IMG/VR virus record: IMGVR_UViG_3300044939_000025
Coordinates: 1 to 22,660 of that record
Length of the DNA: 22,660 bases
Strand: one strand, 5' to 3'
Source of the DNA: a virus
Positions 85 to 22,660 of this stretch are shown here, piece after piece. The number at the start of each line of letters is the position of its first letter. The stretch's first letter is position 1. Both the position numbers and the translations under genes were made by a program. The notes under the pieces were generated by a model that saw nothing but the letters and a program-made list of their open reading frames with translations, was not told where the DNA came from and ran no database searches.

Positions 85-194
85 TTGTGAGTTAAAGATG
101 TTCACGTATAGGACGATTAAACTGTTCACGCATTACTAAAATATTGTCATTGGCGTAATATTGTATACGAGTTTCATTCTACTGGAGAATTTGT
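85..194 (+). promoter_or_regulatory. 110-base intergenic leader, possible regulatory region
   Basis: This is the longest non-coding gap in the window. It holds a direct repeat, TGTTCACGTAT at 99-109 and TGTTCACGCAT at 123-133, whose copies start 24 bases apart. A second short repeat, GCGTAATAT, occurs at 72-80 and 153-161. The stretch 144-169 is AT-rich with TTGTCA and TATACG-like hexamers, but their spacing (14 bases) is poor for a sigma-70 promoter, so I do not assign one. The Shine-Dalgarno GGAGA of the next gene sits at 184-188. A promoter is plausible here because this is the only sizeable gap before a long operon; that is inference. Confidence 0.35.
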
Positions 195-503
195 ATGAAG
201 AAGATCGCCCTTGACGAGGCTGCAAAGAAGTATTGGAAGATGCTTTTCAAGGAACTTGGTTACGGCGAGGCGCTGGTTCGTGACATACCGCGTCGCATTA
301 AGGCAGCTTTGGTCGACAATAAGAAAGTTGCTGGCGTAGATGCATCTGCAGTTATAATCCCAGTTGCCCACGCAGTTAATGGCGAAAGTCGTGTGATTGA
401 GGGTATCTATTCGGACGGTTCTAGGTCGAAGCTGCTATTCAGAGCCGCCTTAGATTCTCGTGGCGATGTTACTGATATTCGTACTATAGCCATTAGAGGG
501 TAA
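195..503 (+). CDS. Small hypothetical phage protein (102 aa)
   Basis: The function is not recognised. The start ATG at 195 has a good Shine-Dalgarno, GGAGA, seven bases upstream-spaced at 184-188. The N-terminal third is basic and helix-prone (KKYWKMLFKELGYGEALVRD, then IPRRIKAAL), and the rest looks like short beta strands (DASAVIIPVAHAV, RVIEGIYSDG). There are no signal peptide, membrane segment or cysteines. It is the first gene after the 110-base leader, and its stop codon is one base from the start of the next gene, so the two are probably translationally coupled. Being next to small and large virion-type genes suggests a minor virion or assembly protein; this is inference from position only. 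Confidence 0.75.
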   Translation: MKKIALDEAAKKYWKMLFKELGYGEALVRDIPRRIKAALVDNKKVAGVDASAVIIPVAHAVNGESRVIEGIYSDGSRSKLLFRAALDSRGDVTDIRTIAIRG

Positions 504-504
504 T

Positions 505-783
505 ATGGTTAAGATTGTTAATCTTACTTCAAGTAACTGTTCAATAGATTCATTGTGTACAATTCTGGGCCCAGGTGAATCGTTAGAATTTATGTTGTCT
601 GAGCAAGAGATGATGCTTGCACACCCTGATATTGTAGAATTTATAAAGCGTGGCCATCTTGCGGTTGTGCCGTCTCAACAGTCTAACGATGCGCATGATA
701 GTGATAAGTCTGTAGACGACAAACTAGCTCCTGCTGACAATGGTGATGCATATAAGACAGATGGTCTTAGCGAAGAGGGATAA
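505..783 (+). CDS. Small beta-domain protein with acidic tail (92 aa)
   Basis: Residues 1-55 read as a compact beta domain: KIVNLTSSNCSI, then a LGPGES turn, then HPDIVEFIKRGHLAVV, a pattern in which a short helix is followed by a final strand ending in a Gly-hydrophobic step. Small phage head and tail proteins often have this layout (an N-terminal 'V-N-L' strand, a Gly-rich turn, and a terminal 'i..G.l.vv' strand). Residues 56-92 are a disordered, Asp/Ser-rich acidic tail. AGAGGG at 495-500 lies just before the ATG, and the start is one base after the previous stop. The protein at 8556-8765 has a similar layout and may be a distant paralogue. The exact role is unknown. Confidence 0.75.
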   Translation: MVKIVNLTSSNCSIDSLCTILGPGESLEFMLSEQEMMLAHPDIVEFIKRGHLAVVPSQQSNDAHDSDKSVDDKLAPADNGDAYKTDGLSEEG

Positions 784-786
784 ATT

Positions 787-3402
787 ATGCAAACACGTAA
801 GGCCCTTAGTTTGTTAGGCGTTACTAGATCAGAAGAGCAGTCGCCACTTGAAAGGCATGCATCTAGATATCTTCGGCAGTATGAGGAAACTAATCGTGCC
901 ATAGAAGAGAAGAAAGCACGTGTAAATGTACAGTTGCCATTTTATGACGCACTTAAGCGCAAGATTAACAAGGCATTGAGTGAACAGGCTAAGAATGAAG
1001 AATCTATGCCTGTTGTTGCAACTTTTGATTTGCATTCATCTATTGCAAAGTATGCGGAGCGTGCGCCTAAGGATCGTGGTATAAAGAATTTAAGTGCGCA
1101 TGTTCGCAAGTTGTGGGAGAAAGACCCGCTAGGCTCACTCAGCTATCGTGATGTCAATGGGCTTATTTCTACTTATAGAGACTTGTATCCTAAGTCAAAG
1201 GCTGCTGATTTAATACAAGCTGAGGTTATTAGGCTTGGGTATCATAAGTTGCCGGTAGCAAAACTGGCACGTATTGCAAGCCGTATTAATAGCCAGGAAG
1301 ATTATGATGCTGCCATGGAAGCAAATGGTTATAGTGGTGCACGGCCTGAGCAGGTGCGTGCAAGATCATTAGTGCGTGCACTTGTTGCAATGCGTACTGC
1401 GGCTGGCGATACATTGTCTGATAAGGTCAAGGATCCATTTAATAAGCCCGATGCCGAATCGTATGTGGGTGATAAATTATTGGAATTGTCTTCTGACGGT
1501 GGGTCAGACACTGATTCGTTTGATGCATTAAGCAAGCCAGAAAATGATATTGAGTTGCCACCTGAATTTAAAAGTGACAACACACGAGGCGAAAGTAGCC
1601 CGGAGGAAATGCTCAATGACGCTGCAGAGGCGATCCAATCAGTAGAGGAAGTTGCACTAGATGTTGCGCCTCCTGAAGCGAAAGATTTTATAGACCATGA
1701 GATGTCAGAGGGACATCATGCACATCCACCTGGGTCTGCTGGCTGGGGGGCAGAAGAAAAGATGGAGCCTGCCCATGCTGACAGTGATTCTATACCAGGT
1801 GATCCTAAGTGGATGCAGGAGGAATTGTCAGAGATAGAAGGCGAGCAGGCTGGCGACATTGATATGTTTGGCGGTACTGATGATATTATGTCATTTAATG
1901 CATCATTTAATCTCACTGCTTCATCAATTGAAGATGCATTGCTCAGTGGTAAAGAAGTTAAATTCGGGAAGATATCCATAAAGATTAATGATAAGGATGA
2001 GGTTGAGCTTTGGAATGGTGCTGATGGCGTAGCAACCAGCTTAATTCATCTTGATACAGCGATTGCTGATTTTATGAAGCTAGCAAGTGAATTTGAGCTG
2101 CAGGCCAAGGCACCTCCTGGCAAGGAGAAGCTAGTAAAAAAGTTGAAGAAACAATATCCAGGACATCCTGAGAAGGCATTTGCAGTTGCATGGTCAATAC
2201 ACAATAAAGAAAAGAAAAAGCGTGCATTTATAAGCAGGTTCGCGTTTGCTGTTACGGAGCTTGCAGATATACCATGCGCTGGCTGCGGCAATGTAGTTAC
2301 TTATAAGAAGGCCAGGTCTGCGAATGATGTATATAGGTGTGATTGTGGCCATACTGTACGTAATAGAGCCCGCGTTGCAGCGTCGCATGACGACATGTCT
2401 GATTTGCCGATCATTGAGGGTACGCCAATAGATGATGGAAACGACATATCTGATTTGCCGATAATTGAGGGTACGCCAATATATTATAAGGCTAAAATAG
2501 ACATTCTTTTCAATGGAAGGCCAGAAGTTGCATCTGCGCTATATGGAAAGATAATGTCTATAGCGTCACATGCCAAAGTAGATGTACATGGCAATAGGAT
2601 GACTGCAGTCGTTAACTACACAGATGAAAAAGACCTTGGTGACTTGGTCCATGCGCTAACAGAAGCAGGTGGTCGTAACATACTATATCATCAATTAGAT
2701 GATGGTAGTGGCTCAGATAGTCAACGTGTAGGCCAGCTGCTATCTGAAGCGGCCCCAGAAGGGCAGCAGATGGATAATGCGGTGATGTCTGGCGAAGGTT
2801 CACATGGCGGTGATGCACCATCTGTTCCTGCGGTGTCTAATTCTGAATTGATTCGTGCCGCGCTTACAAATTATCGTGCACAGGGCATGAATTTCCCAGA
2901 GGCTATGAAAGAATTTAATAAGGAGCATGGCGATCGTCTAAGTGGGTGGGGCCCTGAAGATGATGCAACCCTAATATCTGTTGCAAGGGAGTTATGGACT
3001 GGGGATATAATGTCAGCCCCGATGGAAGAGACAATGATGGAGCCTATACAAGCGACTAGTAAGAATGCACAGGCACGTATGAAGTTGCCAAAAGTTAGGA
3101 AGCCGTCGGATCATGTTAAGCCTCAAAGCCTAGGCAAGGACTCTGAAGGTGAAGATCTCCTGCCTTCTACAAAGGTGAATAAGAATCACAAGCCAAGTGG
3201 TAAGATGTCTGACACTGATCTAGGTAAGGATTCTGAAGGTGCTGATCTGTTACCGGACCCTGGGAAGCCTAAGCAGCGACATATGCCACAGGATCAGCGT
3301 GGTGTTAAGCTGCCTGACACTGACTTAGGTAGCGACACAGAAAAGAATGACCCATTCAAAGTTCCATCACTTGGGTCTAGCCCATCAGTTTCTAGTAAAT
3401 AA
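787..3402 (+). CDS. Large mosaic virion-associated protein with zinc cluster and repeats (871 aa)
   Basis: Not a family I can name. Start ATG at 787 follows AAGAGGGA at 773-780. The layout is: a helical, basic N-terminal region (about 1-230); an acidic low-complexity region (about 235-370); a small strand-rich segment around 385-420; residues about 440-476 with a short motif, KAPPGKEKLVKKLKKQYPG then KAFAVAWSIHNK, of a kind that recurs in otherwise unrelated phage structural proteins; a four-cysteine cluster C497-x2-C500-x17-C518-x-C520, likely zinc-binding; a tandem 17-residue-period duplication (536-565); a predicted alpha/beta segment (about 567-615); a helical segment near 686-740; and a disordered tail with three LGKDSEG-type repeats. 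No signal peptide or membrane segment is seen. Size, charge and position upstream of terminase fit an internal head or scaffold-like component, but this is inference. Confidence 0.8.
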   Translation: MQTRKALSLLGVTRSEEQSPLERHASRYLRQYEETNRAIEEKKARVNVQLPFYDALKRKINKALSEQAKNEESMPVVATFDLHSSIAKYAERAPKDRGIKNLSAHVRKLWEKDPLGSLSYRDVNGLISTYRDLYPKSKAADLIQAEVIRLGYHKLPVAKLARIASRINSQEDYDAAMEANGYSGARPEQVRARSLVRALVAMRTAAGDTLSDKVKDPFNKPDAESYVGDKLLELSSDGGSDTDSFDALSKPENDIELPPEFKSDNTRGESSPEEMLNDAAEAIQSVEEVALDVAPPEAKDFIDHEMSEGHHAHPPGSAGWGAEEKMEPAHADSDSIPGDPKWMQEELSEIEGEQAGDIDMFGGTDDIMSFNASFNLTASSIEDALLSGKEVKFGKISIKINDKDEVELWNGADGVATSLIHLDTAIADFMKLASEFELQAKAPPGKEKLVKKLKKQYPGHPEKAFAVAWSIHNKEKKKRAFISRFAFAVTELADIPCAGCGNVVTYKKARSANDVYRCDCGHTVRNRARVAASHDDMSDLPIIEGTPIDDGNDISDLPIIEGTPIYYKAKIDILFNGRPEVASALYGKIMSIASHAKVDVHGNRMTAVVNYTDEKDLGDLVHALTEAGGRNILYHQLDDGSGSDSQRVGQLLSEAAPEGQQMDNAVMSGEGSHGGDAPSVPAVSNSELIRAALTNYRAQGMNFPEAMKEFNKEHGDRLSGWGPEDDATLISVARELWTGDIMSAPMEETMMEPIQATSKNAQARMKLPKVRKPSDHVKPQSLGKDSEGEDLLPSTKVNKNHKPSGKMSDTDLGKDSEGADLLPDPGKPKQRHMPQDQRGVKLPDTDLGSDTEKNDPFKVPSLGSSPSVSSK
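2392..2481 (+). repeat. Tandem in-frame duplication, 39-base copies with 51-base period
   Basis: Copy 1 is at 2392-2430 and copy 2 at 2443-2481; the two differ at two positions by eye. Each encodes D(M/I)SDLPIIEGTPI, separated by a four-residue spacer DDGN. It lies directly after the four-cysteine cluster of the 871-residue protein. Near-identity at the DNA level suggests either recent duplication or selection to keep two copies of a short linear motif. Confidence 0.85.
3130..3357 (+). repeat. Three spaced acidic peptide repeats (LGKDSEG-type)
   Basis: At the C-terminus of the 871-residue protein the peptide LGKDSEGEDLLP (3130-3165) is repeated as LGKDSEGADLLP (3220-3255) and in degenerate form LGSDTEKNDPF (3325-3357). 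The copies start 30 and 35 residues apart, joined by Lys/Pro-rich linkers. Synonymous differences between copies (for example GAC TCT versus GAT TCT) show that the peptide is conserved more than the DNA, pointing to a functional short motif such as a docking or processing site. Confidence 0.75.
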
Positions 3403-3405
3403 TAT

Positions 3406-3419
3406 GTTGCCACAGCAAC
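3406..3419 (+). other. Small hairpin abutting the ribosome binding site of the 1691-residue gene
   Basis: GTTGC (3406-3410), a CACA loop, and GCAAC (3415-3419) form a 5-bp stem in the 26-base gap before the ATG at 3429. The Shine-Dalgarno GAGG (3420-3423) begins at the base after the stem, so the structure could present or partly mask it. There is no T-tract, so it is not a Rho-independent terminator. A 5-bp stem may be chance. Confidence 0.35.
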
Positions 3420-3428
3420 GAGGTTCAG

Positions 3429-6400
3429 ATGGAGTTATCAGATAACAAGTTTATAACAAATGTTGGTGTTTGTACACGTTGTGGTGTATTTGTAGATGGT
3501 AATGCAACAACATGTAATGCATGTGCAATACGTGTAAATCGTGCGCTTATCGCAGCAGCGCTGGATAAACGCGATTATACTGCTGTACTTAATTTAATAG
3601 CAGAGGTTGGTGGGCCTGATATGGCCTTGCATGATGATAATAATAAAAATGTACAGCAGACAGCTTGGGATGAGCCACGTGTACGGCAACGTGTTCAAGA
3701 GCTAAGGGCTGGCGGTAATAGTGATGCTGATATACTAGTCGGCTTAGTTGAAGAAGGAGCGTTGGGTAAAGAACAGCCTACTGTTGAAAAGATAGACCAT
3801 CTTAATAATATAATTAAGCAATCGCGTACAGAGAGTGAAACCACATACGCGCCATTGTCTAAGCCAGAGATTGAGGGCAGCGGTGTTGTGCAACAGCCGC
3901 TACGTAGGAAGCGCTATATTAACAAAAAGAAGAAGGCGCAGATGCAGCCTGCCATGGCTGATATGCCGCAGCAGGGAATGCCAATGCCTGGCCAAGAGCA
4001 TGGCGTGGCTGCACCACAGGAGTCTCTAAACACAGAGCAAGTTGCGCCAGACGCAGCTAACGATAGGCCAACAATATCAGAATCTCTAGCAGAGTTAGAG
4101 AATTCATTGTCAACCATCCAGAAAGCGGTATCTGATATTAAGAGTGGTATAGGCGCAGGAGAGACTACAATAGATGGTATACCTGTAGAGCCTGCGTCTG
4201 ACGAGTCTGGTCCGATACCGTCTACTATGACTCCTGGCTCAGTTGGTACTGTACCTGAATTAACTACGTCAAAAGTGGCGGCTGGTCCAGACGATGACGA
4301 AGATGTCATTGATGATGATGATATACTGTCTGATGATGATATTGTAGACCCAAGCGATTTTGATGATTTCGAAGATGAAGACGTAGAAGACAAGTATAAG
4401 AATGTTGACTGGCGTTCTCTGCAGAGGCTTGAACTTCAGCGTGCTGAAGACAGGAAGAAGCGGCAAAAACTAACGTCACCAGACGATGATGATAGTGGTG
4501 ATGTGCTACCTGGTGTGCGTGATCCGTTTAATATTAATAAGAGGATTGTAGATATAGATAGGGGTCACAAGCCACGTACATTTGTGATGAAGGATACACC
4601 AGGTGCTAAGCAGCATAAGCCGAAGCCACCTGGAATGGGCGGTTGGCTAGACTTGGAAACGGGTGAATGGGTGCCGCATGAGAAAGCTGAAGAGGAGCTT
4701 TCGCTTGGTGAAAGAAGTCTACAGGAGATGTTTAAGGGCGACAAATCTAAGGTTGACGAGTGGGTTGCAAAGTCGCTCGAAGCACAAAATCGCATAAATG
4801 AGGCGATTGAAAGGCTACGTGAGGAGCTTGCAGATGAGGCTGTTAGGCTCCTAGGATTAGGTTTGCCATATTCACAAGTAGAGAAATCTATAAACAGGAA
4901 AATTGTTGAATATAATAAGAAATATTTTGAGTTGATGAGCGACCAGGATAAGGAGTTGCTCAATATAAATAATCCAAAATTCATATACAGAATGTCAGTG
5001 CCTCGTATACAAGAGGCTATGCGTGCTAGGGAAGAAGTTAGGGAAGCACATAGGAAACACCAGCTTGCTAAAATGCTACACGATATACGTCGTGAGCAGT
5101 ATTACACGTATTTGGAGAAGACAAAGGGTCCAGCAGAGGCTGAAAGAGCTCGTAAGATGTATGAGTCTCGTGGCAAGCACGAGCTTACTGATAGGGACCT
5201 CGAGTTTATAGATAGGTATTATAAAGAATATAATAATGATGAGCTGGTCAAGCGATCAATCTTAGATGCTCTTCGTAATGAATACATGCTGAAGCTAGAT
5301 AATCCCGATGATGTCGCTAGGTTCAGCAAGCTTCCAAATAGCCAGTTACCTAAGGAGATAATAGACGAGTATAATACCCTTGTAAAGGGTAAGAATGTAA
5401 GGGAATTAGAAGAAGTGTTGCGTGGCCTTGTCAGTGAGTTAGGCGAGGCGCGAGCTGAGGCTAGGAAGAAGAGAAATATTGAACGTAGTACTGTAAAGAG
5501 TGTTGATGTACCTGCTGGATCAGAGTATGAAAATGATCCAGTTATGTCTAAGATAGTTGAGAATCTGCGCACAATTAGATTTAATAAGAATATAACGCCA
5601 GAAGAGGCAGCAGAATTAGTTACCCCAACAAACTGGAGTGACGAGGATAAGAAGATAGTACTTGACTTAGCCAGAAAGATAGTGCGTCGTGACACCGGTG
5701 GTGTTACGGATGAATCGTCTGGCAGAGATGAAAGCGGCGGGGGTAAAGGTGGCGCATCTGGGCCATATGAGGCTTTGTTAGAGGATAAGTATAGTATAAT
5801 AGATTCACAAGATATTAGTGAAGCCGAGAAGAGGTGGCGTAAGCGTGAGCTAAGTAAGAAGCTAAGGCAGTTGCCACCGTGGGTGGTTAATGAGCTAGTA
5901 GATAAGAAGGTAGTACGTAGTGGCGACCCGGTCTATATTGTTTATGAGAGGGTGCCAGATGAGAATGATAATTTAGTTGAAGTTGATGTTGGTGAAGTCA
6001 GCACTGACGAGTCTGGTAACCCAGTTATAAATGCGTATAACGCCAAAGATCAAGATAGACTAGATTCAAGGTATAATGTTGTAATAGGAGCTAACGGCAA
6101 GCCTGAGATACGGCCTAAGTCAAGTGATGCTGTAGATAGTAGCGGGAAGCCATATGCAGGTATTAGAGCTGTACATAATACACGAGAGGTTTATGTACCT
6201 AAGCCCATTTACAAGCCAAGTGTATGGAAGTCACTGAATCCGTTTGCTAGAGAAGAGTATATTAAAGTGTTTGGCACGCCGGGTTCTGCCATTGATGATG
6301 AAGCGTTTATACCACCTGCAGCAGATAGGCCATCACCACAGGGCGGAGAGGGTGCACCTGGCGGACAGACAGCCGTGCCACAGGCACAGCTACCTGAATC

Positions 6401-8555: not shown

Positions 8556-8765
8556 ATGGCAAGGTACTATGTCATAAATCAGTCAACTGGCGATGTGGCA
8601 ATAGACATAACTAATACACTTGGTCATGGATACCATGTAATCGTCCCACGTAGCCAGGCTCTTGATATATTGCCATTTGCTGGGTCCATAGATGCATGTC
8701 ATAATATTCCTGGGCTCTATGACATGATAGTAAAGGGCTATATAAGGGTTGAGGAGGAGCGATGA
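8556..8765 (+). CDS. Small beta-domain protein (69 aa)
   Basis: I take ATG 8556 (MARYYVINQ) rather than the in-frame TTG at 8550, because ATG is the stronger start and TTG adds only two residues; neither has a clear Shine-Dalgarno. The protein reads as strands and turns: YYVINQSTGDVAI, a LGHGYHVIV turn, and a final PGLYDMIVKGYIRVEE segment. The last part resembles the HPDIVEFIKRGHLAVV end of the protein at 505-783, so both may be copies of the same small virion fold. Its stop overlaps the next gene's start as ATGA (8762-8765), implying translational coupling. Function is unknown. Confidence 0.7.
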   Translation: MARYYVINQSTGDVAIDITNTLGHGYHVIVPRSQALDILPFAGSIDACHNIPGLYDMIVKGYIRVEEER

Positions 8766-9538
8766 GCGTTAATGGTCCTTTAGACATTATATGGCAGTAT
8801 CGGTGCAAGATATGCCAGATGGCGAACACACATCCAGATGTGTTCAAGGAATTACATCAGAATGTACTTGAGGTAGGCATGAGTTACACTCGTGCCATGA
8901 ATCTTATTAACGACCGTATAGAGAGAGAGCATCTGACATGTCCTAAGTTGAATAGTCAGAACATGACTGTACATTTTTCAACTCATATTACTATACCAGA
9001 TAAAGTACAGTCAGAAATAGTAAAGGCCCACACCGGACCTTCTTTGAGGGATATAAACCCAGAAGTAGGTAGCTATGTAGAAGAGCTTGTCAGGCGTCGT
9101 GTTGGTAATGAAGTCAACGATTATTTGAACATCGATAGGCTACGATCGATGCTCATGGAAAAGCTTGATGTACTAGATGATCTTGTGGCTAAAGAGGATA
9201 ATAATGGTGTTAAATATATAGATTTGCAGTCACTCGATAGCTACATAGCTTTAGTAAAAGAAATTAGGGCATGTATTGTTGACCTGAATAAAATTAGGCA
9301 TTCGAAACAGTTAGTCAGCTTGGTTATTAAATCACTTGTTGAAAGAAATACATTCGAGATAGTGCGTCAAATGGTACGTGAATATGACCAGATTCGTAAA
9401 GATATGCTCGAATCTGGTATGAGTACAAAGGACGCTGATAGGATACATAGGCAATTATCACTAAGGCTTGCTGAAGTGGTTGCTCTTACTGCGAAACAGG
9501 CTGTGGCAGATATATCACGTACATATAAGTTGGCATAA
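8762..9538 (+). CDS. Putative small terminase subunit-like zinc/helix protein (258 aa)
   Basis: Start ATG 8762 overlaps the previous stop, with AGGAGG at 8752-8757. Residues 15-75 hold C15-x2-C18, a helix, the segment GMSYTRAMNLINDRI that looks like a helix-turn-helix, and H71-x3-H75. This follows a pattern I know from many phage small terminase-like DNA-binding proteins: CxxC, then 'l..G.s...ia..l', then HxxxH. The two cysteines and two histidines could bind one zinc. Residues about 95-258 are all helical (for example YIALVKEIRACIVDLNKI), as in the oligomerisation region of such proteins. A small subunit normally recognises phage DNA and loads it on the large terminase; that gene is four genes downstream. 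The assignment rests on motif pattern, not on strong identity. Another DNA-binding regulator is possible. Confidence 0.55.
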   Translation: MSVNGPLDIIWQYRCKICQMANTHPDVFKELHQNVLEVGMSYTRAMNLINDRIEREHLTCPKLNSQNMTVHFSTHITIPDKVQSEIVKAHTGPSLRDINPEVGSYVEELVRRRVGNEVNDYLNIDRLRSMLMEKLDVLDDLVAKEDNNGVKYIDLQSLDSYIALVKEIRACIVDLNKIRHSKQLVSLVIKSLVERNTFEIVRQMVREYDQIRKDMLESGMSTKDADRIHRQLSLRLAEVVALTAKQAVADISRTYKLA

Positions 9539-9542
9539 TATT

Positions 9543-10271
9543 ATGTTAGTATCTGATAGAATAGCAAAGAGGTTGATTAAGAATCATAGCGATCTTCTTG
9601 GTATAAGCAAGATCGCAACTGACGGATGGAATATATCAATAGATGATCTTGAAGATGCGGTTCCGTTAAAATATGAGGAGTGTTTTGTTGGTCTTGGTAA
9701 AGATGCTAGGATAGTGGTTAAATGCCAGATTGCTAATACGACAGAATTGCAGGTTATAGGTCTGCAGAAACATAGCAGTCTTGCTGCATACGATGGTATG
9801 GTATTTCCGTACCATCCACCCAGAAGGGTTGGATTCCACATGGCGTCAGTTAGATTCCCTATTGATATTATATTTGTTGGCAGTGACAGACGCATATCTA
9901 GGATAGTTGATAATGTAGAGCCTGGATCACCTGGCAGATGGTATATGCCTCATACCGCGGCTGTAATAGAAGTTAATGGCGGATTTTGTCGTGCACATGG
10001 GCTATCAGTTGGCGATGATGTTTGCTTGGTTGAGCCAATTGTGAAAGGTGCACAAGAAGGATTCCCTGATTATCCAAGGAAGGATATTAACCCACAAATG
10101 GTTCGTGACCCAGATAGGGATCCAGAATATAGGTTTAAAGGTCACGATCTCCCAGATAAATTTTTTGATTATAATCCAATGGATTCTAATTATATGGAGA
10201 CTGATGGGGTTGATGTGGTGAGATATCATGACGATGATGATAATATAGCTCCAGTTCGTCCATCATTGTAA
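9543..10271 (+). CDS. DUF192 family protein (242 aa)
   Basis: I choose ATG 9543, four bases after the previous stop; an upstream in-frame start at 9468 would overlap the preceding gene by 71 bases. Residues about 57-163 match the DUF192 fold well: IVVKCQIANTT, a GLQKHSSL segment, GMVFPY at 85-90, FHMASVRFPIDIIFVGSD at 98-115, and VIEVNGGFCRAHGLSVGDDV at 141-160. These correspond to the family's 'GMLF', 'WM.n...plDiiF' and 'vlEl..G.....gi..Gd' blocks. The family is a small beta domain found in bacteria and archaea; its biochemical role is not established. Many bacterial members are exported, but I see no signal peptide here. About 42 residues precede the domain and about 80 follow it; the tail is Asp/Pro-rich. 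Location inside a head operon suggests a virion-associated use (inference). Confidence 0.85.
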   Translation: MLVSDRIAKRLIKNHSDLLGISKIATDGWNISIDDLEDAVPLKYEECFVGLGKDARIVVKCQIANTTELQVIGLQKHSSLAAYDGMVFPYHPPRRVGFHMASVRFPIDIIFVGSDRRISRIVDNVEPGSPGRWYMPHTAAVIEVNGGFCRAHGLSVGDDVCLVEPIVKGAQEGFPDYPRKDINPQMVRDPDRDPEYRFKGHDLPDKFFDYNPMDSNYMETDGVDVVRYHDDDDNIAPVRPSL

Positions 10272-11179: not shown

Positions 11180-13096
11180 ATGCCTGCTGTTAAAAAAAGG
11201 AAGCTAAGACCAGCGCAGCAGCCTATACCAAGAAATATAGCTGCGCTATATGTATTTAAGCATTACTTAAAGTGGTTTTATGAAAGCTTTAAATGGCTTT
11301 TGAATCTTGATGTGTCTGCCGTGGACACACCTGAGGCGCATGTTACTAAACTACCTGGTTTATATTCCCAGATAATGTATTTGGTACATGCAGCGTATAC
11401 GTATGTTTCAACGGCCTTGTCAATTGCAAAGGCGCCAAACTCTGTTGCGTTGCAGAGCCAGAGAGAGGCTGAGGCAATGCGTAGATTTTTTGAGATGGAT
11501 CCGGCTGAATATGTGATGAAGCGGGTCCAGATTGATGTTCCAATAAGATTTAGTAATCCACGTAAAGTAATAAATGTATTAGATGGGTTTGTTAAGAGTA
11601 TACAGAAAATATTCTCTGAATCTTTCAGTAAGCCTGATATAATAGATTCATATGACGATAGTACGCTACGAGTTGTTTTTGAAAAAATTGCACACTTCAT
11701 CAAGGTGTCGCATGACGCTTTGTTAATGTTGTCTATGTCTGGGCAAGAACAGTCTGGTACCGTCAATAAGCAGGCTCCTAAGACTGATGGGGAGCAGAGT
11801 CCACCCGCGCCACCAGCCCAGCCTGTCCAGCAGAAACCACCAGCGCCACCAGCCCAGCCTGCCCAGCAGAAGCCACCAGCGCAATCAGCTCAACCAGCGC
11901 AGCAGAAGCCACTTCCGCCTGCCCAGCAGAATCCACCTGCGCCTCCAGCTCAGCCCGCGCAGCAGAAGCCACCCGCGTCTGCCCAGCAGAAACCACTTCC
12001 GCCTGCCCAGCAGAATCCACCCGCGCCCCCAGCCCAGCCTGCCCAGCAGAAGCCACTTCCGCCAGCGCAGCAGAAGCCACCGCCACCGCCTCCACCAACA
12101 CCACCGGCTCCACCTACGCCGCCTGCTCCACCTACGCCACCGGCCCCACCTACGCCACCAGAGCAGGCTGTGCAGCAGGAGCATAGGCGATTAGTGCCAC
12201 CTGTGCAGCAAATGCATGGCCCACGATCTCCAGCAGATACGCAGCAAGTTAATATGGCATTGCGTGATCAGAAGTCTGCGATATCTGCGGCAGACGCAAT
12301 ATTAAGGGCATTGTCATATAATCCAGTGTACATTAAGACATATGGTAAGTTATTTAATAAGGCAAGGTCATTGGCGCTGTCTGGTCACGGACAATCATAT
12401 ATGTTCGTGCCTAAGATACAAGAAGCTGCGAAATACATGCAGGAAAAACACCCTAGATTGTATTCGTTAATAAAGAAGCAATTAAATACACTTGAATCAA
12501 GTATGCTACCTCCATTGCCACCACACCAGGTTGGCCTTTTCAACAGGCTAAAGAATTGGTGGCGCACACGTGGTATGCCAGAAGAGCCACGCCCGTATGA
12601 TGCACCAGAGCGTGTATTTGAGGGTGTGCGTAAGTTCGTGGCACAATTAACAGGTGTAGATCTACCTAAAGAAATTTTCGATGCTGATTTTAAGTCGGTA
12701 GAAGAGCTGATAGAGCTCATACTTAAAGAAGTCGAAAAAATGAAGGAAGACGGTATCGCACCTGTTGATATAGAACTGTCAGTGCTGCGGAAGCATGGCC
12801 CAGAAATACATAAAGAAGTGTTCGAATCTGACGATGATGATACAGATGAGGAGGAGGATGGTGATGATGGGAGCGAAAACGATGCTAATGATTCTGACAA
12901 AGATAAATCAAAGCATGATAAGAAGGGCGTTAATGTCCATATATTAAGTGGTGATGGTGTTGATGATAATTTACGATATATTAGATTTCGTTCTAGGCCT
13001 GTACGCGCAATAAAATCTGACGGTACGAATGTTACTTTCGAAGTCAGGATTGGTGGGTGTTGGACGCGCCTATATTCTGATAAGCAGCCTCGATAG
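11180..13096 (+). CDS. Proline/glutamine-repeat protein with acidic region (638 aa)
   Basis: Unrecognised. ATG 11180 has only a weak purine stretch upstream. Residues 1-200 are helical and folded-looking (IAALYVFKHYLKWFYESFK). Residues about 207-333 are a low-complexity spacer of PPAPPAQPAQQK-type units, a run of seven prolines, and TPPAPP tandem repeats. Residues about 340-530 are again helical. Residues about 549-584 are very acidic (SDDDDTDEEEDGDDG), followed by KDKSKHDKKG. A final strand-rich segment ends in FEVRIGGCWTRLYS. The proline-rich part probably acts as an extended arm between two folded modules. The stop codon is joined to the terminase Shine-Dalgarno, indicating co-expression with packaging genes. 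A virion arm, scaffold or packaging accessory role is inference. Confidence 0.8.
   Translation: MPAVKKRKLRPAQQPIPRNIAALYVFKHYLKWFYESFKWLLNLDVSAVDTPEAHVTKLPGLYSQIMYLVHAAYTYVSTALSIAKAPNSVALQSQREAEAMRRFFEMDPAEYVMKRVQIDVPIRFSNPRKVINVLDGFVKSIQKIFSESFSKPDIIDSYDDSTLRVVFEKIAHFIKVSHDALLMLSMSGQEQSGTVNKQAPKTDGEQSPPAPPAQPVQQKPPAPPAQPAQQKPPAQSAQPAQQKPLPPAQQNPPAPPAQPAQQKPPASAQQKPLPPAQQNPPAPPAQPAQQKPLPPAQQKPPPPPPPTPPAPPTPPAPPTPPAPPTPPEQAVQQEHRRLVPPVQQMHGPRSPADTQQVNMALRDQKSAISAADAILRALSYNPVYIKTYGKLFNKARSLALSGHGQSYMFVPKIQEAAKYMQEKHPRLYSLIKKQLNTLESSMLPPLPPHQVGLFNRLKNWWRTRGMPEEPRPYDAPERVFEGVRKFVAQLTGVDLPKEIFDADFKSVEELIELILKEVEKMKEDGIAPVDIELSVLRKHGPEIHKEVFESDDDDTDEEEDGDDGSENDANDSDKDKSKHDKKGVNVHILSGDGVDDNLRYIRFRSRPVRAIKSDGTNVTFEVRIGGCWTRLYSDKQPR
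11800..12171 (+). repeat. Proline-rich coding repeat array with an 84-base super-repeat
   Basis: Units encoding PPAPPAQPAQQK, PLPPAQQN and related forms are arranged irregularly. A block starting at 11911 recurs at 11995, a period of 84 bases or 28 codons, with high identity over roughly 65 bases. At about 12095-12160 an 18-base unit encoding TPPAPP is repeated about three times. The array is far more C-rich than the surrounding genes. It lies wholly inside the 638-residue gene and keeps frame. Copy-number change by slippage or recombination is likely. Confidence 0.9.
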
Positions 13097-13104
13097 GAGA
13101 CACT

Positions 13105-15135
13105 ATGGCTAGGGACCATGATCTTGATGGGTTCTTAGCAGGACTACGAACAAAACTGCAAGCTGAAGCGTCTGCCCATATAGATAAGCGCGTAGATAAT
13201 GCTACACAGGCCGTAGACCAAGATCTAGAATATTTCATCACTCCAGCGCCGAATGCAATTGAATGGGTTATACGGCCTGAGTACCTAGGAATAGAGTCAT
13301 TATATCGGCATGTGAGGCAATACCAGATTATAAGAGACTTTTTCCAACTTAGATGCCCATTGCCAAGTTGTAATGACCAGAGTGACGAGGCGAAAGACTG
13401 CTGGGGTAAGGGTAGAGAGTATCTAGAATCAGAGAATCTCTTAAGATGGTCTAAGAGTCATGGTGAAGATGTTTGCCCTTCATGTAGCTCTACTAGGTCT
13501 GAGCTTATAGCAGATGGCTTGTTGAAAATCTATAATCAAATGCATTTGGTGTGTGGGATGCGCTCAGGGAAGTCATCTGTGGCAGCGATGATTGGCACAT
13601 ATGTAGAGCATAGGCTAATAAATATAGGTCATTCATTCCCTGGTGGCATTTCATCGTATTTTAATCAATTGCCTAGGCAGCCATTTGAAATGACGTTTAC
13701 TGCTGCAACTGAGGTGCAGGCTGCAGATACCATCTGGGCTAGGTTTGTGGCTATTCGTGGGTCTAGCCCGTGGTTTGATCGTTATATAAGATGGATTAAA
13801 TCATTAGAGATGAGGCAGACCACAGTTAATGGGGCAAGACCATGGACGTATGAAGAGCGTGATAAATATATAATTAATGGGTTTTTGAATCTGAAAATCA
13901 ATTCATTGAATTCAAGCTCTTCTGGGATGGCAGGTAGAACACGTGTGGTTGCATTCATAGATGAGCTTGCAAGATTTGATGGTAAAGATTCGTCTCGGTC
14001 CGCTGATGAGGCGTATCGTGTGCTTGAAAACTCTCTTAGAACTGTAAGGTCTGCCGCATTGTCTAAGAAGGATGCGCCATGGTTTGGGTCGATGTTTTCA
14101 TTGTCATCTCCAATATCAGAATCTGATAAGGCCATGAGGCTGTTGCGCCAGGCGCCAGAAATAAATGGCATGTATTATGGGCATTATGCCACATGGGAAT
14201 TTAATCCTGACCAGCCTAGGTCGATGTTTGATGATGATTTTGCGAAAGACCCTATAGGCGCAATGCGCGATTTTGGTGCTCGCCCGCCAACTGCTGCATC
14301 GCCATTTATACAGGACCCAGACAGGTTCAGGGAGCTTGCTATCCAAAAAGATTTAAAGCCAACGGCCACATTTAAGAAGATTAACCACATAGACCAAACT
14401 GGTCGTGAATATATCTCTGCTGTAGTTGAATCTGCCAATCTATCAAGGAATGGTGAGAGATATATAGCGTTTGATGCTGGCGCCTCGTTTGACCAGTTTG
14501 CCGCTGCGTGTGCGCATGGTGAGTGGGTTGATACACCAGAGGGCAAGCAGTTAGTTACTGTGTATGACTGGGTATATAGATTGCTCCCAGAGCAATCCCC
14601 ACGTAGGGACATATGGTTTGATTTTGTTGTTAAGGCTGTTGAAAAGCTGTCAAAATATTATATCATATCGAGGATAGATTTCGATCGATGGCAATCAACA
14701 TATCTTATACAGCAGCTTAGGGAGCGTGGCATTAATTGTGCGTCTAAGGGCACAACTGTTGATATGTTTTTGAAGTTTTTGAATGATGTTAATTATTCTA
14801 AGGTACGTATGTTACCACCAGTTGAAAATGACCATATGCTTGATCCACCATTTATGTCTGCACAGGGACTTGCTTTTTATGAATTAGAACATTTAGAACG
14901 GTCACCTGACCTTAAGAAAGTATATAATCCGCAGAAGGGTGAGCGTAGGGGATGGAATTCAGATGACGTTGCTACTGTAGTTGTACACGCTAATTGGATG
15001 GTACAATCTATAGTATCAGATATTAGTGATTCTAACTCGATTGAGAGTAGGTTGCGCCGCGAGCAAATTGGATCAAATTATTGGGAAGGTGGTGCCAAAT
15101 TATATCGACCAATGTTTTCTAAACGAGGCTGGTAA
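13105..15135 (+). CDS. terL: Large terminase subunit (676 aa)
   Basis: This is the DNA-packaging motor: an ATPase that pumps DNA into the prohead and a nuclease that cuts it. AGGAGA at 13095-13100 overlaps the previous stop and fixes ATG 13105. The Walker A box is GMRSGKS (151-157). The Walker B box is VVAFIDE (281-287), with D286 and E287 as metal and catalytic residues. The C-terminal RNase H-like nuclease is visible as YIAFDAGASFD (D457, D463), SRIDFDRW (D525, D527) and NSDDVATVVVH (D620, D621, H628); which acidic residues bind metal is inferred. A cysteine cluster between the N-terminal segment and the ATPase (C84, C89, C99, C124, C127) looks zinc-binding and is absent from T4-type enzymes. 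At 676 residues it is somewhat longer than the usual 450-620. The next gene overlaps its stop by one base. Confidence 0.95.
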   Translation: MARDHDLDGFLAGLRTKLQAEASAHIDKRVDNATQAVDQDLEYFITPAPNAIEWVIRPEYLGIESLYRHVRQYQIIRDFFQLRCPLPSCNDQSDEAKDCWGKGREYLESENLLRWSKSHGEDVCPSCSSTRSELIADGLLKIYNQMHLVCGMRSGKSSVAAMIGTYVEHRLINIGHSFPGGISSYFNQLPRQPFEMTFTAATEVQAADTIWARFVAIRGSSPWFDRYIRWIKSLEMRQTTVNGARPWTYEERDKYIINGFLNLKINSLNSSSSGMAGRTRVVAFIDELARFDGKDSSRSADEAYRVLENSLRTVRSAALSKKDAPWFGSMFSLSSPISESDKAMRLLRQAPEINGMYYGHYATWEFNPDQPRSMFDDDFAKDPIGAMRDFGARPPTAASPFIQDPDRFRELAIQKDLKPTATFKKINHIDQTGREYISAVVESANLSRNGERYIAFDAGASFDQFAAACAHGEWVDTPEGKQLVTVYDWVYRLLPEQSPRRDIWFDFVVKAVEKLSKYYIISRIDFDRWQSTYLIQQLRERGINCASKGTTVDMFLKFLNDVNYSKVRMLPPVENDHMLDPPFMSAQGLAFYELEHLERSPDLKKVYNPQKGERRGWNSDDVATVVVHANWMVQSIVSDISDSNSIESRLRREQIGSNYWEGGAKLYRPMFSKRGW

Positions 15136-15755: not shown

Positions 15756-18017
15756 ATGAGTGATGAAATGATACACGGGCTTACGCCACAGCAGGTAGCT
15801 GAGCTACATGAGCGTATGTCTAAGCTTGACCCGGCTATAGTTAATAGCTGTGATGTGTCTTATAGGTTTAGGTCATTATTTGAATCTGAGCTTCCTGAGG
15901 GTGCATCGTGGGATGTGCGTAGGACTGCGCAATCACTAAATGTAAATAACACCGGTGGCAATGCATCAAATACGCTCATAACACAACAGACTCCATATCA
16001 ACCAGAGTTTGCAAGTCCAGATCGTCAGCAGTATCCAGTACACAGAATACTAGCTAATAGATATTGGAGGTTGTTTTTTAAGCTAGACCCAGTAATTGGT
16101 AATGCAATAGATTTGTATTCTGAACTACCATGGAGTAATTTTGAACTTACAGGTGAGGGTGTTGAAGGTGAGGTGAGACATACTTATGAGAGGATGGTAT
16201 CTGAGACACAGATACTGGCGATGCTTCCATATTTCGTACGTGAGTTTCTGGTAGTAGGTGAAGTAATCCCGCACTTGTTTTTTGATGATTCAAAGGGTAT
16301 ATTTACTTATATTTCGCTCCACAACCCTGACCAGATACAAATAATAGATACTCCATTTATTAAAATGGATCCGGTTGTACAGTTTATTCCAGATGATAAA
16401 TTGCGTGCTGTATTGCTGTCTGATGACCCGCAGTTGGTAAAGATTCGTAATAAAATGCCACCAGAGTTGTTGTCAAAATTGTACTCTAAACAGAGTATAG
16501 TTTTGTCTCCAATAAATTGTACATTTATACCTAGAAAACTACATCCATATGATACTCGTGGCACATCTATAATCAGTAGAATGTGGCGAGTTCTGATGTT
16601 AGAGGATGCAATATTTAATGCAACAATACAAACTGCAAGACGGCATGCGGCCCCATTGAAGGTTGCGAAATTAGGTAATGCTGCTACTGGATTCATACCA
16701 CCGCCAGAGCAGGAGAAGAAATTGCTGGAACTATTGGCCCAGGCTGAGCAGGACCCAAATGCGTGGCTTGTATACCATTATGGGATACAGTTTGAGACTA
16801 TCGGTACTACCGACAGGTCGCTGTCTATTGGTCGTGAGTGGGATATACTAGAACGCATTAAACTTGTCGCGCTTGGTATTAGTAAGAGCTTTTTGCACGG
16901 TGAGGTTACATACGCAAGTGCAGCTACTGGGTTACAAGTGTTTTTACAGAGACTGAAATCACTACGGATGTTTTTTGAACAAAAGTTTTTGTATCCTAAA
17001 TTCTTTAGGATAGTTGCAGAAATTAATGGTTGGATTAGGCCTAAGCCGTCCGAGATAACGCATAGATTTAGGGTAAAGCGGTCACAGCGAGAACTTATTG
17101 AAGATAATGCATATATAGTACCTAAGATAGTATGGGATAAGACTCTTGACCCACAGATAAATGACAGTCTAATTAGTGCGATGTCTGCACTAGAGAGTCT
17201 CGGTGTGAAATTCTCTAAGACTTCTAAGATGGCCGCTGTCGGATACTCCTTTGAGGAAGAGACTAAGAAAATACATCGCGAAATGGAGTTTGAGAAGCAG
17301 TTTTTGCCTACTACTAACCAGCAGCAGGGTAAAGGTGGTGGCGGAGCGCCTATGGTTGGCGGTGGAGGTGGTGGTATGCCGCCGCCACCTACTGGTGGTG
17401 GTATGGGCGAGGGTGGTGCTGATATTGGTGATACTGGAGAGGGCCAGTCCATTGGCGAACCTGCTGGTGGTGCCCCAGGTACTGGAGAAGCGGGAAGTGA
17501 GCCACCACCAGCTATTCCAGGAGCTTCAAAGAGGAGCATGAGATCTGGGGCTAAGAAGCGGGATGGTGCCCCTGGTAGATCTTCTATTGAATCATTAACA
17601 TCTAATATATGGGTAGATGATAAGTATGGTAATTGGGATGCTGAGGAAGTAGCATCACTTAAAGACTTGATAACTGAGGGGAAGACAGATTCTGCTTTTT
17701 GGCAGCAGCTTGGGATGACGCGTTCATTTAAGAAAGCGGTTTCATCTGGTGATACTAATATGATGTGGGATCTTATTGAAGATTACCTTGTTGATCACGG
17801 GTATCCAGATGTAGATATAGACGATTTGCGTACAATATTGGAAAAAGAATCAGTACTACGTGCGCCAATGGAATTTAACGCATTGAAATCGTTAGAAGAT
17901 AGAATTAATGAAAACATGTCTGATAAAGAATTTATGGATGTAGTAAAAAATATTGCAGCTGAGATTAAAAATCCTGGCCCAGTAAACACTGACAATATTC
18001 TGACTGGAATAGGGTGA
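15756..18017 (+). CDS. Portal protein (753 aa)
   Basis: This is the dodecameric head-vertex ring through which DNA enters and leaves. Recognition rests on the ordered features of large-phage portals: RQQYPVHRILANRYWRLFFK with LDPVIGNAIDLYSELPW (about 90-127); an alpha/beta core with YFVREFLVVGEVIPHLFFDD; the phrase ISLHNPDQIQIIDTPF; the RRHAAPLKVAKLGNA segment (about 297-311); a helical stem region with LVALGISKSFLHGE; and EFEKQFLP near 515. Residues about 525-590 are a Gly/Pro-rich linker, then a folded C-terminal domain (about 600-753) that most portals lack. No good Shine-Dalgarno precedes ATG 15756; a second in-frame ATG lies at 15768. It is flanked by terminase and protease genes, the standard order. 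Confidence is high for portal; the function of the C-terminal domain is unknown. Confidence 0.9.
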   Translation: MSDEMIHGLTPQQVAELHERMSKLDPAIVNSCDVSYRFRSLFESELPEGASWDVRRTAQSLNVNNTGGNASNTLITQQTPYQPEFASPDRQQYPVHRILANRYWRLFFKLDPVIGNAIDLYSELPWSNFELTGEGVEGEVRHTYERMVSETQILAMLPYFVREFLVVGEVIPHLFFDDSKGIFTYISLHNPDQIQIIDTPFIKMDPVVQFIPDDKLRAVLLSDDPQLVKIRNKMPPELLSKLYSKQSIVLSPINCTFIPRKLHPYDTRGTSIISRMWRVLMLEDAIFNATIQTARRHAAPLKVAKLGNAATGFIPPPEQEKKLLELLAQAEQDPNAWLVYHYGIQFETIGTTDRSLSIGREWDILERIKLVALGISKSFLHGEVTYASAATGLQVFLQRLKSLRMFFEQKFLYPKFFRIVAEINGWIRPKPSEITHRFRVKRSQRELIEDNAYIVPKIVWDKTLDPQINDSLISAMSALESLGVKFSKTSKMAAVGYSFEEETKKIHREMEFEKQFLPTTNQQQGKGGGGAPMVGGGGGGMPPPPTGGGMGEGGADIGDTGEGQSIGEPAGGAPGTGEAGSEPPPAIPGASKRSMRSGAKKRDGAPGRSSIESLTSNIWVDDKYGNWDAEEVASLKDLITEGKTDSAFWQQLGMTRSFKKAVSSGDTNMMWDLIEDYLVDHGYPDVDIDDLRTILEKESVLRAPMEFNALKSLEDRINENMSDKEFMDVVKNIAAEIKNPGPVNTDNILTGIG

Positions 18018-18277: not shown

Positions 18278-20872
18278 ATGGGATTTTGGAAGACTGCTAA
18301 AATTCCACTTGAATGGATTGCTGAGGCAGAATACGATGCCGATTCGCAGTCATTACGTTTCTTGAAGAATGCATCAAAGGAGTCCCATTATAAGGAGGCA
18401 GCTAAGGGGAGTATTAAGATACAGGATATATTGAATATCACGGCTGATAAATATAATATATCAAATAATCCTAAGGATTACCTATATGAAGTAGTTAGGG
18501 CCGTGACTGCAGAGGTACCTAACGAAAATGGCGATGCTTTCCCACGTAATGAATTGTTGCGTTTTGACCATCAGCGTAATGCTGCAGTTTTCCAGACATT
18601 TATAGGTAAGCCTCACCATATTAATCATAAGGCTGACAACCCTAAGACAGCACGTGGTGTGGTTATAGATGCATACTATAACGATAAGTCGCCGCCGTTG
18701 GAGCAGTGCCCTAGCTGTGGTACTAAGACTGCTGCACGTGAAAATAGGGATGATGAGACTGGTATATATTGTAAGAAGTGTGGCACTGTAGTTAAGGATG
18801 AATTTGTTGAACTTTTACTAGCCATTGACACGAAGAAAGACCCTACGTTTGCTCATGGCGTTAAAACCGGGGCATTAGATGGGCTGTCGATGGGATGTAC
18901 TGCTGGCTATACTGACTGTAGTATATGTGGTAATAGGGCCAGATCTGCGTCACAATTTTGTGAGCACATACGCGGCAGTAACAAGAAGAAGCAGTATAAG
19001 ACCGCATCAGGTAGCATGAAAATGTCTTTCGAGAAGTGCGGTGAGGTTGAATTTACAGAAATTTCACGTGTAGATCAGCCAGCTGATCCAACAGCAAGGC
19101 AGAAGGAATTGCTCGAGGTAGCACCAGCTAGTCTGCAGCTAGAATCAGAGAATTTAATTCTAGCCAATAGGATATCTAAATTGGAGGCGGCTGTTGCGAA
19201 GTATGCGCAGGCTGTTGGCGCTGGCGCTGAGCCTACTGATAAAGAAGATATTTTAAATGAACTTGAGTCAATTAAGGACATGCACCCTGCTCTATATCTG
19301 AAGTTAAAGCAGAAGCTCGACCCTAACTATACTAATGGTGCGATGTCTATTGACGAGTACACAGAGAAAAAATTAGATAGCCAGGGCGATGTTTCGCCTG
19401 CTGAAATAGGTATACTTAGTGATACAGCTTCTCCAGCCCCGGCAGAGGTGGCTAGAAGCGCTGTTTTGAAAAACATTGAGGCTGATATTGACAAAATTGA
19501 GGAGCAGACTGTGGGTACCAACTTGATGTTTAAGAATGCATATAATGATGTTGAAGTCACTGTTACAAATGCTGGTAATGTGACTGTAGGTACAAAGCGT
19601 GGTAGTCTTTTCCTTATCAGGCCTAAGGATAAGCCCACTGATAGGGAGTCTGCAAAGAAGATAGCTGTTGAAGTGTTAACTAGCATAGCATCTCGTGGTC
19701 TTGTAGAGACTATGGAGAAGTACAATGCTATTGCATCACCACGCATTGGCCAGGTATTAGAGTTCCATGTTGAAGATTTCGCCGGTGGTCGTAGCGAAGG
19801 TGACAAGAAGCCATCAATTGAAGGTGGCGATGATGATATGTCTGGCGACATGCGTGGTAAGCCAGCTGGTAGTACGTTGGATGATGAGCATTCTGATCGC
19901 GCAGAGAAGCGTAAGAAGAGAGATTTGAGTGATTCTACTCTTGATGACGCCGTTCGTGATAATGCTGAACAGCCAACTGGTATGAAGCCGTTGGCCGGTG
20001 AGGAACATGCAGATAATGAAGGGCATGGTAAGGCGCCCAAGTCCACGCTTGAAGATCTACATTTAGATTTTTCTCATAGTAAGTCGAAGTCTAAGACCGC
20101 GCAGATGGCTGCTGAAGATGATATTGTTGATTCTTCAGATCTAGAAGATGAGCCATTTGAACTAATACCAGATGATTATGATCCGCTGTCACAGGATGGC
20201 TCAGCAGAGCTTGATATGCAGGCATCTGCACGTGAGGCTGCGTTAGGCCTAAAGGTTAAGGCTGCAGTCACTGATTTAGCTAAGAAGCATGTTGCGCGAG
20301 TTGAGAAGCTATATAAGTCGCGTCTTGCTAATATTAAGTCTGAGGTATTTGAGTCACTAAAGTCTAAATTTGCTAGGGCATTAAAGCTAGCCGCTAAGCG
20401 TCAGGCATTGAACCTAGAGTCTAGCCCTATGAAGGCTCGTATGTTTGATGTGTTGACGTCAGAATTAGACCTTGGGGGCGATGAATTTTATCCTGGCATG
20501 GATCCAGTTACTGCCTCTACATTAATAGAGGCTACTGCAGATGGATTTGAGGCGACTGCCTCGTCTATGGTTGATAGAGCTGCAGAGCTGGTTGCCATGA
20601 GTGATGAAGCATTTGATGCGTTAGAAAATGACGTTAAGCATTTGCAACCAGTTGGCATTAGTGTTCAGGCATTGCGGCAGGCTAAGAATGAGCCTAGCCA
20701 GGCGGTGCGTAAGGCTGCAGTGGAAGGTAATCTACCAATAAATCCATCTGCATCCTTTAGTGACTCTGATGTAGATGATACTGTTCCCGTAAACAACAGT
20801 AGAAGAAACATTAGAGCAGCTTTAGGTAATACTATGGTTAGTAGAACCGCAAGCAAATTTTTTAATAAGTAG
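18278..20872 (+). CDS. Prohead protease fused to long scaffold-like C-terminus (864 aa)
   Basis: Residues about 65-275 match the capsid-maturation protease pattern of large phages: VTAEVPNENGDAFPRNELL (76-94), then FIGKPHHINHKADNPKTARG (108-127), then GALDGLSMGC (198-207), then EISRVDQPADP (261-271). By analogy with the herpesvirus-type fold, H113, H114 or H117 and S204 would be catalytic; the exact residues are inferred. Two cysteine modules are inserted: C144-x2-C147-x17-C165-x2-C168, and C214-x2-C217-x10-C228-x-H230. The C-terminal 580 residues contain coiled-coil-like helices, a strand-rich segment, a disordered part with three STLDD-type motifs, and a helical end resembling scaffold or core protein. 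SD AGGGAT sits at 18266. The protein would process scaffold and possibly capsid protein. A single protease-scaffold gene is plausible but unproven. Confidence 0.85.
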   Translation: MGFWKTAKIPLEWIAEAEYDADSQSLRFLKNASKESHYKEAAKGSIKIQDILNITADKYNISNNPKDYLYEVVRAVTAEVPNENGDAFPRNELLRFDHQRNAAVFQTFIGKPHHINHKADNPKTARGVVIDAYYNDKSPPLEQCPSCGTKTAARENRDDETGIYCKKCGTVVKDEFVELLLAIDTKKDPTFAHGVKTGALDGLSMGCTAGYTDCSICGNRARSASQFCEHIRGSNKKKQYKTASGSMKMSFEKCGEVEFTEISRVDQPADPTARQKELLEVAPASLQLESENLILANRISKLEAAVAKYAQAVGAGAEPTDKEDILNELESIKDMHPALYLKLKQKLDPNYTNGAMSIDEYTEKKLDSQGDVSPAEIGILSDTASPAPAEVARSAVLKNIEADIDKIEEQTVGTNLMFKNAYNDVEVTVTNAGNVTVGTKRGSLFLIRPKDKPTDRESAKKIAVEVLTSIASRGLVETMEKYNAIASPRIGQVLEFHVEDFAGGRSEGDKKPSIEGGDDDMSGDMRGKPAGSTLDDEHSDRAEKRKKRDLSDSTLDDAVRDNAEQPTGMKPLAGEEHADNEGHGKAPKSTLEDLHLDFSHSKSKSKTAQMAAEDDIVDSSDLEDEPFELIPDDYDPLSQDGSAELDMQASAREAALGLKVKAAVTDLAKKHVARVEKLYKSRLANIKSEVFESLKSKFARALKLAAKRQALNLESSPMKARMFDVLTSELDLGGDEFYPGMDPVTASTLIEATADGFEATASSMVDRAAELVAMSDEAFDALENDVKHLQPVGISVQALRQAKNEPSQAVRKAAVEGNLPINPSASFSDSDVDDTVPVNNSRRNIRAALGNTMVSRTASKFFNK
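19871..20056 (+). repeat. Three STLDD-type peptide motifs in the protease-scaffold protein
   Basis: STLDD occurs at 19871-19885 and 19934-19948 and as STLED at 20042-20056, starting 21 and 36 residues apart in an acidic and Lys/Arg-rich disordered stretch (residues 532-593). Codons differ between copies, so the peptide rather than the DNA is kept. This could be a repeated docking motif. Confidence 0.65.
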
Positions 20873-21686: not shown

Positions 21687-21706
21687 TATGATTGGAGATA
21701 AGTAAA

Positions 21707-22660
21707 ATGGGTGTTATCAATCCTTATCGGCAAATAAAGAACGCGTCAGTGCAGAAGGCTCATCCTGCCCTTGCTACTACAACAAAGGTCAAGGTTTCCA
21801 ATAAGGAGACCGAGGCCATGGTTGATGATAAGGGCAATTTTAATCCGCCTTCATTTGGGGGGTACACGGATGCTGGCCACGCAGACATTCGTGCGGCACT
21901 TGGTAATCCCAAGTCAAGAATGTTTGATGCGTCTGGCGAGCTTAATGCATACGATAAGAAGGATGCCCTGCAGCAGATCGCGTATCTGTTGAATAACGTT
22001 ACTAAGAAGACTGCAGGCTCGCTCTATCGCGAACCGTCGCCTCTAAAGGCAGAGGAGCGGCGTAAGATTCTTGCTGCTGCGTTGCGTGACCCTACTGGTG
22101 AGGGTTTTGCAATTGTAGGACAGGAGCTGCTCCTCCCCATTAAGGACATTATTGACTATGAGGGATGGGCCCGTAAGATACTACGGGTGCGTCCACTAGC
22201 CCAGGGCGAATTGTTCCGTGTTGCGAAGGACGTTCGCGCCACGGCCTGGGTAATTGGTCAGGATGGCCAGGGTATTGAATCTCGGCTAAGCGGCAAGTAT
22301 GTCATGCCGTCAGAGTTCAAGATCGCCTCGTTCCCCACTGTTGACATCGAGGACATCTATCAGATGAACTTCGATGTCCTAGACCGTGCGCAGGACACGG
22401 CGCGTCAGGAAATTGAGCTTGAGGAAGACAAGCGGTGCCTAGCACTACTTGATCGTGCTGCAACCACCGTCAATGCTGATACCATTTTCTCAACGCTTGG
22501 TGTTGCGGCTCTTGAAGATATACGGTATCAGGTTGAGCGTCACCGCCTTGTTGTCGACAAGTTCCTCATCAACCGTCGTGAGCTAACTGACCTTGTCAAG
22601 ACGTCAGTTGGTCTGAACGGCTCGCAGACTGTTGACCCAGTGACACAGCGTGAGCTGATT
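21707..22660 (+). CDS. Major capsid protein, 5' 318 codons (runs off window)
   Basis: The frame is open from ATG 21707 to the last base. GGAGA at 21694-21698 precedes the ATG. This HK97-fold capsid protein builds the phage head. The folded region starts near residue 138 with GQELLLPIKDII, then YEGWARKILRVRPLAQGELF (151-170), a signature arrangement of the N-terminal arm and E-loop of large-phage capsid proteins. Helices follow at about 220-300 (for example RQEIELEEDKRCLALLDRAA). Residues 1-137 are an unusually long N-terminal extension that could be a scaffold-like delta domain removed by the protease. Codon use is biased to CGT/CGG and ATC/ATT with no AGG, as for an abundant protein. The C-terminus is beyond the window, so total length is unknown. 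Confidence 0.88.
   Translation, partial: MGVINPYRQIKNASVQKAHPALATTTKVKVSNKETEAMVDDKGNFNPPSFGGYTDAGHADIRAALGNPKSRMFDASGELNAYDKKDALQQIAYLLNNVTKKTAGSLYREPSPLKAEERRKILAAALRDPTGEGFAIVGQELLLPIKDIIDYEGWARKILRVRPLAQGELFRVAKDVRATAWVIGQDGQGIESRLSGKYVMPSEFKIASFPTVDIEDIYQMNFDVLDRAQDTARQEIELEEDKRCLALLDRAATTVNADTIFSTLGVAALEDIRYQVERHRLVVDKFLINRRELTDLVKTSVGLNGSQTVDPVTQRELI

Follow-up and report, generated by a model that had tools for sequence, protein, structure and literature searches.

A non-exported DUF192 protein kept beside one partner gene among the particle genes of a phage lineage

A DUF192 gene among phage head genes

The stretch of DNA analysed here, referred to as the window, is the 22.66 kb IMG/VR virus record IMGVR_UViG_3300044939_000025. 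The features that bear on its DUF192-domain gene are collected in Table 1. The gene begins 4 nt past the upstream open reading frame and ends 9 nt ahead of the next gene, which we refer to as X. Downstream, PHROG profiles matched genes for the terminase large subunit (TerL), portal protein, head maturation protease and major head protein. The tight packing among phage-type genes described in the first-pass annotation is borne out. The ATG start of the open reading frame is supported by the relative L009, in which the homologous frame opens with ATG immediately past an in-frame stop.

Table 1. Coordinates of the DUF192 gene, its parts and its neighbours in the window
Feature	Position	Strand	Remarks
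Upstream gene, terminase small subunit (TerS) candidate	8762..9538	+	position, CxxC...H...H N-terminus; conserved neighbour
DUF192-domain gene	9543..10271	+	242 aa, ATG start, TAA stop; dN/dS vs L002 0.144
N-terminal extension, residues 1-39	9543..9659	+	low-confidence predicted helix 3-19; export signal absent
DUF192 fold core, residues 40-165 (Pfam match 60-160)	9660..10037	+	pLDDT mostly >90; dN/dS 0.042
FHMASVRFPID motif, residues 98-108	9834..9866	+	His99 where sampled bacterial DUF192 has Trp
C-terminal tail, residues 166-242	10038..10268	+	low pLDDT
Gene X, 293 aa	10281..11162	+	near-constant DUF192 neighbour
Terminase large subunit	13105..15135	+	phrog_17415, 1.3e-53
Portal protein	15756..18017	+	phrog_16240, 1.1e-82
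Head maturation protease	18278..20872	+	phrog_18299, 3.6e-35
Major head protein, runs off window	21692..22660	+	phrog_2522, 3.8e-41

The domain is a genuine DUF192 domain (PF02643). The Pfam profile matched with an E-value of 2.2e-23 and 82.6 bits (cut-off 27), and a phmmer search with the window protein retrieved the DUF192 structures 3m7a (3.6e-14) and 3pjy (4.6e-6). The AlphaFold model of the protein, built from 35 sequences and confident over most of its core, superposes on 3pjy with a Z-score of 20.4 (rmsd 1.8 Å over 125 residues) and on 3m7a with a Z-score of 19.5; Foldseek matches of the model to DUF192 structures have E-values of about 1e-11 to 1e-12. Both the profile search and the comparison with solved structures that the first-pass annotation had proposed as checks thus uphold its identification of the domain. 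Membership rests on profile and fold, because the motif WM.NT.IPLD, in place of which the window protein has HMASVRFPID, is a common bacterial trait and not a defining criterion. DUF192 is a widespread family for which we know of no established function. Its conservation is highest at Gly, Pro and hydrophobic positions, joined by a single Asp and a single Glu, a pattern that suits a binding fold better than a catalytic set.

Cellulophaga phage phi4:1 gp40 (BFVD S0A572), a structural protein detected by MS, was considered as a DUF192 protein and rejected: the Foldseek match was weak (E-value 0.018), and Pfam and a sensitive HMM search yielded no DUF192. The model also matched the fold of BFVD A0A218MMM0, a 947 aa ‘cytidyltransferase-like’ protein of an uncultured virus, which suggests a further fusion context.

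The extra residues on both sides of the domain, described earlier as possibly phage-specific, exist, about 40 at the N-terminus and about 77 at the C-terminus, and the comparisons support their being specific to phages. The N-terminal extension is common only to the close relatives L002 and L009 and is absent in more distant relatives. The C-terminal tail is probably disordered, and its short linear motifs DI.P, RF..H.LPD and DN.AP.R.S recur loosely across the wider phage group. We computed dN/dS for the window against L002, which is 93% identical. The core value of 0.042 (3 nonsynonymous and 18 synonymous changes) compares with about 0.24 for residues 1-54, 0.335 for residues 164-242 and 0.018 for TerL. 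We conclude that the DUF192 core is under strong purifying selection.

No PHROG or Pfam TerS family was matched by nine homologues of the upstream TerS candidate. The window copy of X matched no PHROG family, and Virus Rctr197k provided the only X homologue in the phages collection. In a fold search, the C-terminus of X weakly matched an SH3-like barrel (Z-score about 7), which is a common arrangement. The gene between X and TerL (11180-13096 in the window, 3983-5881 in L002) contains a long proline/glutamine-rich repeat tract whose length differs between the two relatives; a contact between the SH3-like C-terminus of X and a proline peptide of this gene product is conceivable. Additionally, the head maturation protease carries a zinc-ribbon-like stretch at about residues 143-230, with Pfam matches below the cut-off.

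The neighbourhood of DUF192 in related phages

Relatives of the window (group A) were collected by TerL-based and DUF192-based scans of IMG/VR. Across the loci of the TerL scan, except for the near-identical L008, TerL was 35-68% identical to that of the window. As far as the contigs reach, profiles of the window genes revealed the order TerS-like gene, DUF192, X, TerL, portal, protease and major head protein in Virus Rctr197k and in eight IMG/VR lineages (L009, L011, L013, L014, L016, L018, L022 and L024). Rctr197k, which comes from a DAMO/AAA enrichment, is the only phage relative in GenBank with the same arrangement. The survey thereby found the same order in ten-plus related phages, and the gene is not a one-off cellular insertion. 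The first-pass annotation had named a missing profile match, a deviating fold and such an insertion as outcomes that would speak against it; instead, the profile matched, the fold agreed and the neighbourhood recurs.

Constant linkage between the DUF192 and TerL genes was not found, as it is broken in G009 and G010. The surroundings of TerL had suggested that L017 and L021 lack DUF192, a reading that was rejected when whole-record searches located it at 114.8 kb of the 152.6 kb record L017 and at 94.0 kb of the 175.0 kb record L021. Its distance from TerL is thus about 35 kb in the former and 68 kb in the latter. At both displaced loci, X is the first recognisable gene to follow, with homologues of further window genes upstream. 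In G010, one small open reading frame intervenes before X, which is itself split over two frames. Further, a scan with X alone returned five loci, two of them new (L200 and L202), and DUF192 adjoins X in all five. Because the displaced loci keep X and the X-alone scan consistently returned DUF192 beside it, we conclude that the near-constant neighbour of DUF192 is X, and not the terminase. Two exceptions were observed: L010, a partial record of 54 kb, has X and no DUF192, and L025 has DUF192 after TerL with no X detected.

The L010 record contains a 1911-residue open frame (1-5733) immediately before X, where other relatives have DUF192. Upstream of TerL in L017 (5646-9182), we noticed by eye genes that resemble NAD salvage and Nudix enzymes.

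DUF192 in other phages and in bacteria

TerL was located at a distance of at most 3 kb in 55 of the 80 loci of the DUF192 scan, always on the same strand, and within 200 nt in 43. Most of the TerL-adjoining loci belong to T4-like marine phages forming one clade, in which the gene directly 5' of gp17 (TerL) contains DUF192 or consists of it. Only three cultured species matched, namely the Synechococcus phages Bellamy, S-SM2 and SynMITS9220M01. The hypervariable gp16-gp17 interval is among the gene-exchange hot-spots of these genomes (Sullivan et al. 2010, PMC3037559), and the adjacency of DUF192 and TerL in T4-like phages is therefore weak evidence of function. The position between TerS and TerL, which the first-pass annotation had treated as informative, loses its weight on two counts: the gene can lie tens of kilobases from TerL yet beside X, and in cyanophages the interval is a hot-spot.

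A homologue of the DUF192-carrying protein in S-SCSM1, annotated as ‘virion protein’, is missing exactly the DUF192 segment. The paper that accompanies the record reports MS of purified virions (PMC9602691). The homologue without DUF192 places the carrier protein, and not the DUF192 domain, in virions.

The DUF192 tree puts the T4-like clade apart from group A. We did not adopt an independent origin of the two, since an AU test does not reject one clade (P = 0.487) despite their separation in the tree. A DUF192 protein of a Haloplanus plasmid (L105, 1447-2091), surrounded by uncharacterised genes, clusters with group A in the tree and has a very long branch. In a third, gut-type clade, DUF192 lies near PHROG matches to virion structural proteins in two records (L007 and L030), and the other examples lie within regions of small unannotated genes. 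A TerL match to phrog_2 was obtained in only one of nine gut-type records. The PF03237 search gave no TerL match in 13 of 13 records and is uninformative, because records with known TerL also gave none. In-frame TAG (L110 and L026) or TGA (L029) codons occur in gut-type DUF192 frames, which suggests stop-codon reassignment. We found no papers on phage DUF192 in the open-access collection searched.

A hydrophobic segment upstream of the domain is present in 77 of 85 sampled cellular and plasmid DUF192 proteins (the bacterial set being mostly Alphaproteobacteria), while none of the 18 phage examples has a hydrophobic N-terminal segment. At the motif position, 83 of 85 bacterial rows have Trp (‘FWM/MWM’), and the T4-like clade and most of group A have ‘FHM’ instead, a contrast that is partly biased because one of the two bacterial retrieval patterns required W. 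The His common to the T4-like clade and group A could reflect either common ancestry or convergence. Phage DUF192 is best read as a non-exported, cytosolic form of a family that is mostly exported by the sampled bacteria.

Proposed role and comparison with known systems

We propose that the DUF192 gene of the window belongs to the head-morphogenesis operon and codes for a phage-adapted, non-exported protein that would act as a non-enzymatic docking or adaptor protein, binding a partner in assembly, most likely X. We assign this reading a probability of about 0.52. A docking role is favoured because the core has no recognisable catalytic set. The rigid DUF192 beta-barrel, flanked by the N-terminal extension and the tail, would bind the X product during particle assembly, and the tail could give a second contact via its loosely recurring short motifs. 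The protein might then be kept in the virion or act transiently at head or neck assembly. The near-constant presence of X downstream suggests that DUF192 may have a role in building the particle. The virion or assembly use put forward by the first-pass annotation stays plausible, at roughly even odds, from the location among structural genes and the linkage to X, while the TerS-TerL placement no longer serves as its basis. The S-SCSM1 carrier homologue annotated as a virion protein, the two gut-type records with DUF192 near structural genes and the low dN/dS of the core also speak for it. Linkage within a morphogenesis operon does not by itself prove an interaction between DUF192 and X, and we infer their physical contact, the presence of DUF192 in the virion and the adaptor role from sequence and gene order.

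Alternatively, DUF192 could be virion cargo or an early protein, namely a cytosolic form of an envelope family that interferes with or replaces host DUF192. The family is widespread in cells, and most of the sampled bacteria export it; NMNAT is one example of a non-structural protein in cyanophage virions (PMC9602691), and the cyanophage carrier protein can occur without the domain. We nevertheless consider this improbable, as the phage copies are without the export segment that would bring them to the site of host DUF192, and a head-operon location with an almost constant partner, as in group A, is unusual for host-directed accessory genes. Still less probable is a DNA-packaging accessory working directly with the terminase, as implied by the initial focus on gene placement. 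The two relatives in which DUF192 has moved away from TerL and kept X argue against such a function, and no packaging-family match was obtained; its proximity to TerL in ten-plus group-A lineages and in the majority of scanned loci would fit, but the T4-like loci among the latter represent one clade at a known hot-spot. Least probable is a hitchhiking moron: a domain acquired from cells would have persisted by chance at operon junctions or hot-spots and play no part in assembly. This reading is consistent with the gp16-gp17 hot-spot (PMC3037559), with the optional occurrence in cyanophages (three cultured species matches only, S-SCSM1 being without) and with the absence from the partial L010 record, but not readily with retention across group-A phages as divergent in TerL as noted above, with the low dN/dS of the core or with X linkage preserved away from TerL.

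As a tentative extension, which we hold with low confidence, DUF192 could represent a recurrent structural module of tailed phages that derives from exported cellular proteins, with the export segment lost and Trp changed to His in two TerL-linked clades, and that would form an undescribed two-protein assembly unit with X in a lineage of large phages. If this proves true, the DUF192 family would gain its first defined role. A phage lineage that keeps a seemingly non-exported DUF192 beside one partner among its particle genes poses a testable protein-pair question, and naming X as the near-constant neighbour corrects a tempting gene-order inference about the terminase.

The window protein and bacterial DUF192 proteins (COG1430, UPF0127; 3pjy and 3m7a) have the profile, the fold (Z-score about 20) and conserved Gly, Pro, Asp and Glu positions in common. 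Most of the bacterial proteins sampled have a hydrophobic export or membrane segment at the N-terminus and the WM.NT.IPLD motif, whereas the window protein is without both and has HMASVRFPID, the N-terminal extension and the C-terminal tail. A DUF192-like fold is also found in a chain of a Trypanosoma mitoribosome assembly intermediate (7aoi_XH and 6yxx_EH; Z-score 11-12 over 121 residues, rmsd 2.9-3.0). This chain, however, belongs to a eukaryotic ribosome assembly complex and is 19% identical over the aligned residues, and the common fold is no evidence of a common function.

Among phages, the T4-like phrog_727 proteins (Bellamy gp123, S-SM2_109 and SynMITS9220M01_097) resemble the window protein in a DUF192 domain with His for Trp and lie directly 5' of TerL. 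They differ in being multidomain proteins of 600-700 aa with DUF6321, in which the DUF192 insert is optional, and no X homologue was detected at their loci, unlike in the window. In Virus Rctr197k, gene 042 (KX853510) encodes a DUF192 protein that is 43% identical, without the N-terminal extension of the window protein and with some 170 additional residues in a C-terminal region, and is followed by an X homologue and then by TerL (44%).
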